From: Candidatus Altimarinota bacterium
GTDB lineage: Bacteria; Patescibacteriota; Gracilibacteria; BD1-5; UBA2023
Length of the DNA stretch: 64,000 bases
Assembly: GCA_028689205.1 (NCBI GenBank)
Contig: JAQTWP010000001.1
Coordinates: forward strand, 3,216 to 67,215
Direction: 5' to 3'
The notes below the pieces were generated by a model that worked only from the letters and a program-made list of their open reading frames with translations, was not told the DNA's origin and searched no databases. This document shows, piece by piece, positions 42,437 through 49,393 of this stretch (position 1 is the stretch's first letter; every line of letters begins with the position of its first letter). The position numbers and the translations under genes are program-made.

Positions 42437-42470
42437 AAAAAGTCCCGAACTATTGAGTTCGGGACTTTTT
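42437..42470. terminator. Terminator after serS
   Basis: Near-perfect inverted repeat AAAAAGTCCCGAAC / GTTCGGGACTTTTT. Also spans the 3' end of the convergent 156-residue gene. Confidence 0.95.
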
Positions 42471-42939
42471 ATATTTTAATTCATATTGGTTTGCCTTGAT
42501 TATCAAGTTCTAGTTCTGTAATTTCTCTTACATCTCTAATAAGAGCTACTTTTTTCTCATTTCAAACCTTCCTTTCATAGAAAACTAAAAACTTATTATT
42601 ATTTAATAATGCAGATCAATAGATTATTCATAATGAAACATCATATTTAATTTCTTTAAAACTTACTATTTCATATTTGTAATCTGTATTAAGAATTTTT
42701 CAGATAATAATTTCAGCTTCTTTTGATTGTTCTCAAAGTAAATTCAGGACTATTAATTTAATATCATTTTTAGATAAATTTCAAATAATTTCAGCTTTGT
42801 CTAAAACTTTTGAAATATTTTCTTTTCATCTTGTTATTAAGTGTAGATTTTCTCTAATACATTCTTCTTTTGGACAAATTCAAGGGCAGTTCTCTCATTT
42901 TTGAAGTCATCATTCACATAAACGTGTAACTTTTACCAT
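42469..42939 (-). CDS. Hypothetical protein, 156 residues, Cys-rich N-terminus
   Basis: Begins MVKVTRLCEGGLQKGENC; four Cys in residues 8-27 (C8, and CPGICPKEEC) could bind a metal or Fe-S cluster. The middle resembles a PAS-like or helical sensor (SVSFKEIKYDVSLGIIYG...), but I am not sure. Eight or more TGA at Gly positions. Convergent with serS; no known function. Confidence 0.6.
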
Positions 42940-43035
42940 AACTTTGAAGTTAATGTATAAAAACCATATACTCCTTATAATTTTTTTACTCAATCTGTCA
43001 ATTAAATAAAGCTAACTGATAATTTTTATTTGTAA

Positions 43036-43063
43036 TTGACAATTAGAATTTTTTTCTTATAAA
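43036..43063 (+). promoter_or_regulatory. Consensus sigma70 promoter before the possible foreign island
   Basis: TTGACA at 43036-43041 and TATAAA at 43058-43063 with a 16-bp spacer. Better than most promoters recognised in this window. Confidence 0.7.
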
Positions 43064-43149
43064 CTATGAATTCACGTTACGAATCAGTGCTCTTTTATAT
43101 AATCCAATAAATACAAAAACATAAATCTCAATCAAAAAGGAGAATTACT

Positions 43150-43605
43150 ATGCAAAAAAAAGAAAGAGAGAGAAGAATTTCAAAAAAACGCAAAGAGCAG
43201 AAAGATAGCAGAAAACAAAAAAGACAAAAATGCCTCAGAAACTGTCCTATTGAAATGCAAATGAGTCAAGATAGCCTTGAAAAACTTGTTATTCTGTACA
43301 AAAAACATGCTTTAAATGCAAAAAAGAGAATGGATGAATCCAGGAAACTAATTAAAATATCTTCCAATGGTAAAAAAATCATTTTATTACTTGCATTCTT
43401 TGTTGTAATAAAGATGTTCCATCCGATTTTTAGTCTTTTTTACTTCTGTATACTTGTCTTTTTAATTCTTATTTTGGGGATATTAGAATTTATTCAAATA
43501 TCTGCTGAAAGAAGTAAGTGGATTAATGACGGGGTGTATGTTGATAATAAAAACCAACTTAACAGATATATTCAGATTTTGAATCTACAAGTTAATAATG
43601 GCTAA
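43150..43605 (+). CDS. Small membrane protein, 151 residues, no TGA-Gly (possible foreign gene)
   Basis: Basic N-terminal ~45 residues rich in K, R, E and Q (KKERERRISKKRKEQKD), then two hydrophobic segments (~77-110), then a polar end. All four Gly codons are GGT, GGG, GGG and GGC; no TGA is present. A strong Shine-Dalgarno AAAAAGGAGAA lies 8 bp before the ATG, unlike most genes here, where no clear site is seen. Behind a consensus promoter. It resembles a standard-code gene. Function unknown. Confidence 0.7.
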   Translation: MQKKERERRISKKRKEQKDSRKQKRQKCLRNCPIEMQMSQDSLEKLVILYKKHALNAKKRMDESRKLIKISSNGKKIILLLAFFVVIKMFHPIFSLFYFCILVFLILILGILEFIQISAERSKWINDGVYVDNKNQLNRYIQILNLQVNNG

Positions 43606-43649
43606 TTAATAATTTCTAATAACAAAAATAAAAAAAGTGAGGTGATATT

Positions 43650-44015
43650 ATGAAAAATATTAATCTTTTTGATTCATTTGATTTTGCTTTCCTTATAATG
43701 ATAGCCTATGGAATATATCTTGAAAAGTATTATCATTATTTTGGTAATTCCAACTTCTTGGATAATAAGATGCCCGAAAGAGCATGTAGTTTATTTAATA
43801 ATGTAGCGTTTTTCATTTTTGGAATCTATGAATTATTCAGAGGTAACTATTGGATAGCATATCCTTTAATTACTTTTTATAGCTACTGTATTTATGTAGA
43901 AATTACATCAAATATTCCAAGAGCTATAAGGCTTGAAAACGTAAAAAACAAAAAAGAAATAATTTATATTGGTTGTGGTAGAAAGGTCTTATATGAAGAA
44001 TATAAAGACTGGTAA
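43650..44015 (+). CDS. Membrane protein, 121 residues, no TGA-Gly (possible foreign gene)
   Basis: Three hydrophobic segments, Tyr- and Phe-rich; ends GCGRKVLYEEYKDW. All six Gly codons are GGN. A GAGGTGAT Shine-Dalgarno precedes the ATG. It follows the previous gene after 44 bp in the same direction and precedes a GC-rich terminator at 44075. I recognise no family. Confidence 0.68.
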   Translation: MKNINLFDSFDFAFLIMIAYGIYLEKYYHYFGNSNFLDNKMPERACSLFNNVAFFIFGIYELFRGNYWIAYPLITFYSYCIYVEITSNIPRAIRLENVKNKKEIIYIGCGRKVLYEEYKDW

Positions 44016-44074
44016 AACTACAATCATAATTGACCGTGGCAGTGATATTATATCTGCCTAGAGCAAAAGAAAAT

Positions 44075-44105
44075 AAAAAGCCCCGATTAATCGGGGCTTT
44101 TTTAA
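44075..44105. terminator. GC-rich terminator after the island genes
   Basis: AAAAAGCCCCGATT / AATCGGGGCTTTTT, a classic rho-independent terminator and the most GC-rich stem of the window after that at 20373. Confidence 0.94.
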
Positions 44106-44119
44106 TTTGAAAAATTATT

Positions 44120-44599
44120 TTAATGAGATTCTTGTTTATATTTTTTATAAAATACTGGGAAATGGCTTATAAATAGTAATAAAAATAATGTTCACCAAAC
44201 TATTCAACCAACTATGGAATTTTTGTAATCAAGATTCCTTCTTGCTAGCATATTACTTTTGGCTTCTTCCTGACATGTTTTAATTTCTGCTGGAGTTTTT
44301 TCTTTGGTTGTAGGATTAGTGGATATTACACCAGTTTCCTTATTTGCAATTACCGTCGGATCTTTACATTGAGTGAATTGATAATTATCATAACTTCATT
44401 GCACATATTCTTCTGGAGTAACAATATTGTGTATAATAAGTTGATAACCAAAGTTTCCATATCAAGTTATGGCTCATATAAGTCAAACTATTGATATTAT
44501 TAAAAGATATATTTTAATAAGGCTGAATTCTTTCATAGTTCAAAAGGTTATTGATAAAATAAGTATTATAATTACAGAGATAATAAGTAATGATATCAT
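44120..44599 (-). CDS. Membrane protein, 159 residues
   Basis: Two N-terminal hydrophobic segments, a loop of ~70 residues with two Cys (TQCKDP, IKTCQEE), and a third segment near the C-terminus ending HFPVFYKKYKQESH. The start at 44599 (ATG-ATA-TCA) is chosen because it includes the first hydrophobic segment; an internal Met at 44533 is the alternative. Multiple TGA-Gly in the membrane segments. No family recognised. Confidence 0.62.
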
Positions 44600-48385: not shown

Positions 48386-49393
48386 ATGTCCAAAAAAACC
48401 CAGAATATCAAAGAAACACAAGATATCAATTCAATTCGTCTGAATGCTGACTTTATACGTGAGCTTTTAATTCCTTTATCAACTTTTGTTGAGAATATTA
48501 AAGACTTAGAAAAAGTATTCGTAGAACTGGCAAAAATACTCAATATGAATCATATTAGCCTATATAAAATCCTAGATTCATGAGAAGTTGAAGTTCTATC
48601 AGAATATTCCAATAAAATAAATAAAACCAAAACGGATAATTCTCTTAAAAAAAATATCAATTTACGTGTCGCTTCCCAAACTTGAAAAGTTTCTTCAATC
48701 CCAATGCCGAATTTTTGAGATAATATTGTTATTCCGGTTTGAATGGATAGCTTATTTCTTGGTGCTTGAGATTACAAGAATTCAAGAGAAATAGCCAAAA
48801 TAGAGAATTCACTTTTTGAGCTTGTGGCCTGAGTTATAGCGAACGCTCTTAGATCTATGAAACTAATTGATCAAGCAAACACTGATAAACTAACCTGACT
48901 ACTCAATAGGAACGCACTTGATAAATATATCTACGAAAGCAAGAATCCTTTTGATAGGGAATTGCCAAATCCTATGGCGCTATGTATGCTTGATATAGAC
49001 AATTTCAAAAGATTCAATGATACTTTCTGACATAATGTCTGAGATAAAGTCTTACGTCACGTAGCTGACCTATGTAAATCATATTTTGGAGACGTAAACA
49101 AAGTTTATAGATTCTGATGAGAAGAGATAACTTTTATAATCCATGACCAATTCTGAATTAACATCAACAAATATATAGACGATATCAGGAAAAAAATATC
49201 AGAAACTCCTCTAATATACGAAGGAATTTCATATCAAGTAAATGCTTCTATAGGAATATATACTTTCCATGAACAAGATTTACAAAAAAAAGATTTCAAA
49301 TTCTTCGCCCTAAAATTCGCAGACCAAGCTCTTTATATTGCCAAGGAATGATGAAGGAATAAGATAAGTGTTTATGATAGAAGGGTGGGGTAA
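48386..49393 (+). CDS. GAF-like + GGDEF domain protein (probable diguanylate cyclase)
   Basis: 335 residues. Residues ~15-170 resemble a GAF-type sensor; residues ~180-330 form the GGDEF domain: DKLTGLLNRNALDKY, MLDIDNFKRFNDTFGHNVGDKVL, then YRFGGEEITFII with GGEEI in place of GGDEF, and AKEGGRNKISV. Two of the Gly in the active-site loop are TGA. GGEEF/GGEEI-type loops can be active, but the Ile is unusual. No membrane part. Its 3' end is duplicated at 51963-52094. Confidence 0.87.

Follow-up and report, generated by a model that had tools for sequence, protein, structure and literature searches.

How did two adjacent genes without a single TGA glycine codon come to lie in a genome that reads TGA as glycine? 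This question is raised by a 64,000-nucleotide stretch (the window, in which all coordinates without a prefix are positions) of the 274 kb contig C14 of a Candidatus Altimarinota bacterium, a code-25 member of the Patescibacteria with a genome of 1.25 Mb in 16 contigs. The genes of the window are open when TGA is read as glycine, and a 1.2 kb island, abutted on both sides by such code-25 genes, carries the genes P1 (43150-43605, forward strand, 151 aa) and P2 (43650-44015, forward strand, 121 aa), both of which end in TAA. The evidence presented here makes it very probable that this P1/P2 cassette entered a code-25 Gracilibacterium from a standard-code genome.

The glycine codons of P1 are GGT, GGG, GGG and GGC, and those of P2 are GGA, GGT, GGA, GGT, GGT and GGT. 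An earlier reading of the DNA from its letters only (the sequence-only reading) had claimed that all ten glycines of the pair are encoded by GGN and that few TGA codons had yet been acquired, and the counts bear this out, with four GGN codons in P1, six in P2 and no in-frame TGA (0/10). TGA occurs in the remaining two frames of both genes, eight times in each, and therefore it is the in-frame use that is missing. In the window as a whole, TGA accounts for 797 of 1215 glycine codons (66%), and in the sampled genome (about 0.75 Mb of sampled stretches, on which the genome statistics are based) for approximately 65-67%. Of the 440 adjacent gene pairs that share a direction and contain eight glycines or more, P1/P2 alone has no TGA, and a beta-binomial fit to 642 genes, in which gene-to-gene variation is allowed, gives P = 2.4e-4 for both genes jointly.

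Both P1 and P2 also carry a translation-initiation signal that is foreign to the recipient. The clear Shine-Dalgarno (SD) sites noticed in the sequence-only reading are confirmed as AAGGAGA at 43137-43143 on the forward strand, with the ATG of P1 6 nt further on, and GAGGTGAT at 43639-43646 on the same strand, where the canonical SD is matched over 8 nt ahead of P2. The 16S rRNA of this genome (G000:C10:74882-76359, L031) has an altered anti-SD region, with CTATCTCC replacing CACCTCC. Its end reads GGATGGACTATCTCC, the altered region being GGACTATCTCC instead of GGATCACCTCC, which is the usual end of 16S rRNA. The tail is identical or near-identical to the altered form in four relatives from two families (L144-L147), and the AAGGAGA of P1 is complementary to the TCTCCTT of the altered tail. 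An SD core is absent from 669 of the 703 sampled genes, and 67% of the glycines in these are encoded by TGA. The altered anti-SD region matches this near absence of SD sites on native genes, in agreement with a published report that recognisable SD sites are generally lacking in organisms whose anti-SD is not perfect (PMC6107228).

In 11 of the 703 sampled genes the SD is matched over 6 nt or more, and these genes together contain 10 TGA and 139 GGN codons. When genes with at least three glycines are compared, a TGA share of at most 10% is found in 8 of 10 genes with such an SD and in 13 of 666 others (Fisher p = 8.5e-12). Selection by motif only (AAGGAG-N4-9-ATG, open reading frames (ORFs) of at least 60 aa) gave 25 ORFs with 26 TGA and 239 GGN codons, and 20 of the 25 have a TGA share of at most 10%; a single native pilT-like gene stands out as the chief exception and contributes 19 of the 26 TGA codons. 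The control motifs AAGAAG and GAAGAA, in contrast, give ordinary TGA-rich genes (271/141 and 269/160 TGA/GGN codons, respectively).

Many contigs carry strong-SD, almost TGA-free genes, either as lone genes or in clusters of no more than four, with TGA-rich genes around them, and the P1/P2 cassette is seen as one of about 20 or more insertions of one to four genes in this genome. The sequence-only reading had treated the pair as a stand-alone island and thus missed the genome-wide class to which it belongs. Members of the class include PilZ, CheW, cNMP-binding, beta-CASP nuclease, subtilase lipoprotein, lytic transglycosylase and orphan membrane proteins, and the islands with the beta-CASP nuclease (588 aa, 0/44 TGA) and the subtilase (676 aa, 0/53 TGA) lie inside long code-25 contigs. 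A strong promoter-like string precedes 14 of 17 island genes vs 114 of 295 native genes, and a GC-rich hairpin terminator is present for 9 of 14 vs 46 of 355. The island genes in this comparison were chosen by SD and low TGA jointly, and their pooled count of 4 TGA and 225 GGN codons is therefore not an independent test. Among 34 low-TGA strong-SD genes from three genomes, five of the eight TGA codons fall in the last 15% of the gene, where 14% would be expected from native genes (p = 0.002). The TGA of CheW (L082:15542-16045) is codon 165 of 167, that of the PilZ protein is codon 229, directly past the domain, and in two island genes TGA is the last codon ahead of the stop. This C-terminal excess is suggestive and not proof, because it comes from few genes and from cut-offs that were set after examples had been seen. 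The flanks of P1/P2 share no common repeat of at least 11 bp, and most insertions are without flanking repeats, short AT-rich matches aside; insertion as an integron or transposon was rejected because of this absence.

The same class of genes recurs in two other genera. In G011, from the same family, genes of the class taken at an SD of 6 nt contain 1 TGA and 61 GGN codons, and in G043, which is assembled as one 1.34 Mb contig, genes of this class contain 1 TGA and 55 GGN codons and are scattered among code-25 genes. Since the class occurs in a single-contig relative, misassembly is not its general cause. A small secreted protein encoded near CheW is present in 2 of 99 genomes only (this genome and G011); its TGA-free homologue in G011 is 59% identical and adjoins a methyl-accepting chemotaxis protein (MCP) gene, which argues against contamination as a general explanation. 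Standard-code chemotaxis genes (CheW and MCP) are found in two genera of the family (L082:15542-16989 and L122:11444-13482). G043 also has a purL-like gene (L102:7107-10895, 1262 aa, 0/112 TGA), a purM-like gene (0/37) and an adenylosuccinate-lyase-like gene (0/32), the latter two listed at L102:12065-13219 and L101:15263-16882, as if its purine-synthesis genes had been acquired. In G018 and G009 (L126-L135, same family), TGA makes up only 11-22% of the glycine codons, and no strong-SD genes were observed in the sample.

No convincing homologue of P1 or P2 was found in 98 relatives, none of which is of the same genus and in which the best match of P1 has E = 5e-4 and spans 53 aa, or in 379 other sampled Patescibacteria genomes, so that the code-25 orthologues with TGA glycines that would have spoken against transfer were not encountered in this set. 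The left neighbour (42469-42939, reverse strand) is a native code-25 gene with TGA at 12 of 13 glycines (1 GGN), and its G011 orthologue has 12 TGA codons. G011 has kept the convergent arrangement of serS and this gene, without P1/P2 after it; this is a partial empty-site test only, because the right side is not syntenic. The right neighbour (44120-44599, reverse strand) is likewise a native code-25 gene, with TGA at 7 of 11 glycines (4 GGN) and orthologues in 14 of 75 relatives. The GGDEF gene with which the pair had originally been compared (48386-49393) does have about three quarters TGA (14/19, 74%), but it lies 4.3 kb away.

Upstream of P1, a probable sigma-70 promoter, TTGACA-16-TATAAA, is found at 43036-43063 on the forward strand with a score of 11/12. 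The consensus promoter of the sequence-only reading is thus a real string, but promoter-like strings are no more frequent in this AT-rich region than chance would give (91 counted vs 89.7 expected). The GC-rich intrinsic terminator at 44075-44102 is indeed a perfect 28-bp palindrome; it is supportive and not diagnostic, because native genes carry similar ones (42437-42470), and it could also be used by the convergent gene at 44120-44599. The N-terminus of P1 is helical and strongly basic, and hydrophobic segments of the protein are predicted to form a probable two-segment membrane hairpin, whereas P2, with three predicted helices, is a probable membrane protein. AlphaFold single-sequence models are poor, with a predicted local distance difference test (pLDDT) value of 60 for P2 and one long helix with a predicted template modelling (pTM) score of 0.28 for P1. 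P1 matched no Pfam, NCBIfam, PHROG or PADLOC family, and the likeliest role of P1/P2, as an accessory membrane pair in defence or at the cell surface, is a guess only. A putative ORF of 22 codons at 43994-44062 overlaps the end of P2 (MKNIKTGKTTIIIDRGSDIISA), without evidence of its translation.

Searches of IMG/VR viral contigs, phages and plasmids with P1/P2 returned weak partial matches only, and no PHROG family was obtained below E = 0.2. P2 weakly matches the Chroococcidiopsis plasmid protein WP_250017348.1 (35% identity over 63 aa, E = 9e-3), which belongs to an uncharacterised membrane family; membership in this family was rejected, since most of the invariant residues tested (E33, P38, G61, D62, T102 and E106 in P0001 numbering) are missing and the hhalign probability is 7.9%. 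A match to an Erwinia phage was weaker (E = 0.3). When genome contigs were scanned for P2 and for the beta-CASP island protein, no relatives turned up; the scans relied on exact 8-residue words, which distant donors would escape. CheW gave broad matches of 35-40% to plasmids, with no donor apparent. As no homologue of P1/P2 was found, no donor can be named.

Several points weigh against an origin by transfer. The glycine codons of the pair are distinct, but the other synonymous codons of P1 and P2 depart only slightly from the usual choice (6th and 16th percentile) and the GC content of the pair is native (28% and 26% vs a native mean of 27%). The evidence on P1/P2 themselves is limited to ten glycine codons, and without a donor homologue, transfer has to be deduced from composition and context. 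The few glycines and the native GC content would also suit a native orphan pair that lacks TGA by chance, a reading to which very little credence is given in view of the beta-binomial probability, the uniqueness of the pair among the 440 and the presence of two strong SD sites in a genome where these are so rare. Selection for fast translation, which would cause TGA to be avoided in highly expressed native genes and SD sites to be used for the same reason, is another candidate explanation. The native L7/L12 gene (19975-20358, downstream of an L10 leader) has no TGA among 12 glycines, and therefore zero TGA by itself is not proof of foreignness. EF-Tu, EF-G, BipA-like GTPases, NDK-like and ribosomal proteins (named by their sequence starts) are also TGA-poor. 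However, this native group has no SD, its GGN codons are dominated by GGT (209/340, with just two GGC) and its codon adaptation is mostly high, whereas GGC and GGG make up 19 of 64 codons in the strong-SD genes. P1/P2 do not show this native high-expression profile of GGT-dominated glycine combined with high codon adaptation, and the explanation is accordingly regarded as very improbable. A probable surface protein of 1121 aa (L022:63-3428), with 75 GGN codons (57 GGT) and 2 TGA, combines high codon adaptation with an SD-like site and gives the impression of a highly expressed native gene.

Misassembly, or a contaminant fragment binned into the contig, could be suspected because the bin has at least one TGA-free contig (C9) and a contamination estimate of 2.7%; it is hardly credible for a 1.2 kb island in a 274 kb contig, with about 20 independent insertions and a like pattern in G043. 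Contig C9 (L025, 5.2 kb), in which in-frame TGA is wholly absent, is probably a contaminant in the bin, and as a donor it is unsupported (codon-usage correlation with the islands of 0.919 vs 0.971 for native usage). Arrival through a standard-coded Gracilibacteria phage or plasmid, as a moron-like cassette, is a sub-case of transfer concerning the source and not an exclusive alternative. Standard-coded phages targeted by Gracilibacteria are on record (PMC10746230), and P1/P2 resemble morons in that they encode small orphan membrane proteins and bring a promoter and a terminator of their own. This route is nevertheless unlikely, as the viral and PHROG searches gave nothing beyond weak partial matches, no phage genes were seen adjoining the pair and several sister islands are bacterial-chromosomal in type (CheW, PilZ and cNMP-binding).

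Transfer from a standard-code genome, as proposed in the sequence-only reading, is thus strongly supported by the codon, SD and context evidence. Donation by the host and a recent date, also suggested there, are conjectural, as no homologue points to a donor and the GC content is not shifted. We infer that transfer is the cause, that P1 and P2 are transcribed bicistronically and that both products are located in the membrane. The 1.2 kb at 42940-44119 would represent a complete expression cassette, consisting of a promoter, two SD-led membrane-protein genes and a terminator, which would have been imported from a standard-code genome and would have gained no TGA glycine codons since. Such a cassette would be functional in the recipient, because GGN is glycine and TAA is a stop under both codes. 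Donor genes ending in TGA would be read through to the next TAA or TAG, which would explain the C-terminal TGA codons in the sister islands. More tentatively, code-25 Gracilibacteria may repeatedly capture single transcription units from standard-code cells that are their companions or prey, with these captures bearing three independent marks (a strong SD, TGA-free glycines and fossil C-terminal TGA stops), and the hosts of uncultivated lineages might thus be readable from their genomes.

A recoded genome reveals foreign genes without homology, including orphans, and the SD on imports, lacking on the host's own genes, is a simple tracer of gene flow into uncultivated bacteria. The results suggest that standard-code genes are apparently not kept out by recoding. 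If the SD and GGN signature and the fossil stops hold class-wide, gene influx into Gracilibacteria would become countable per gene with a clear direction, and donors, possibly hosts or prey, would be identifiable once homologues turn up. No paper on such a class of genes was found in the open-access literature, and the claim to novelty is limited accordingly. Phages of Gracilibacteria and Absconditabacteria that are compatible with the standard code have been described (Liu et al. 2023, PMC10746230), and the islands resemble them in that TGA-glycine-free DNA is apparently expressed in code-25 cells. However, those are phage genomes, whereas the islands are single chromosomal cassettes, several of them cellular in function, with an SD signature. 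In a BD1-5 Gracilibacterium, acquisition of a repeat gene region has been suspected (PMC6851277), which is likewise a possible transfer from a standard-code bacterium to a code-25 genome; in the present genome, TGA is missing from whole genes.
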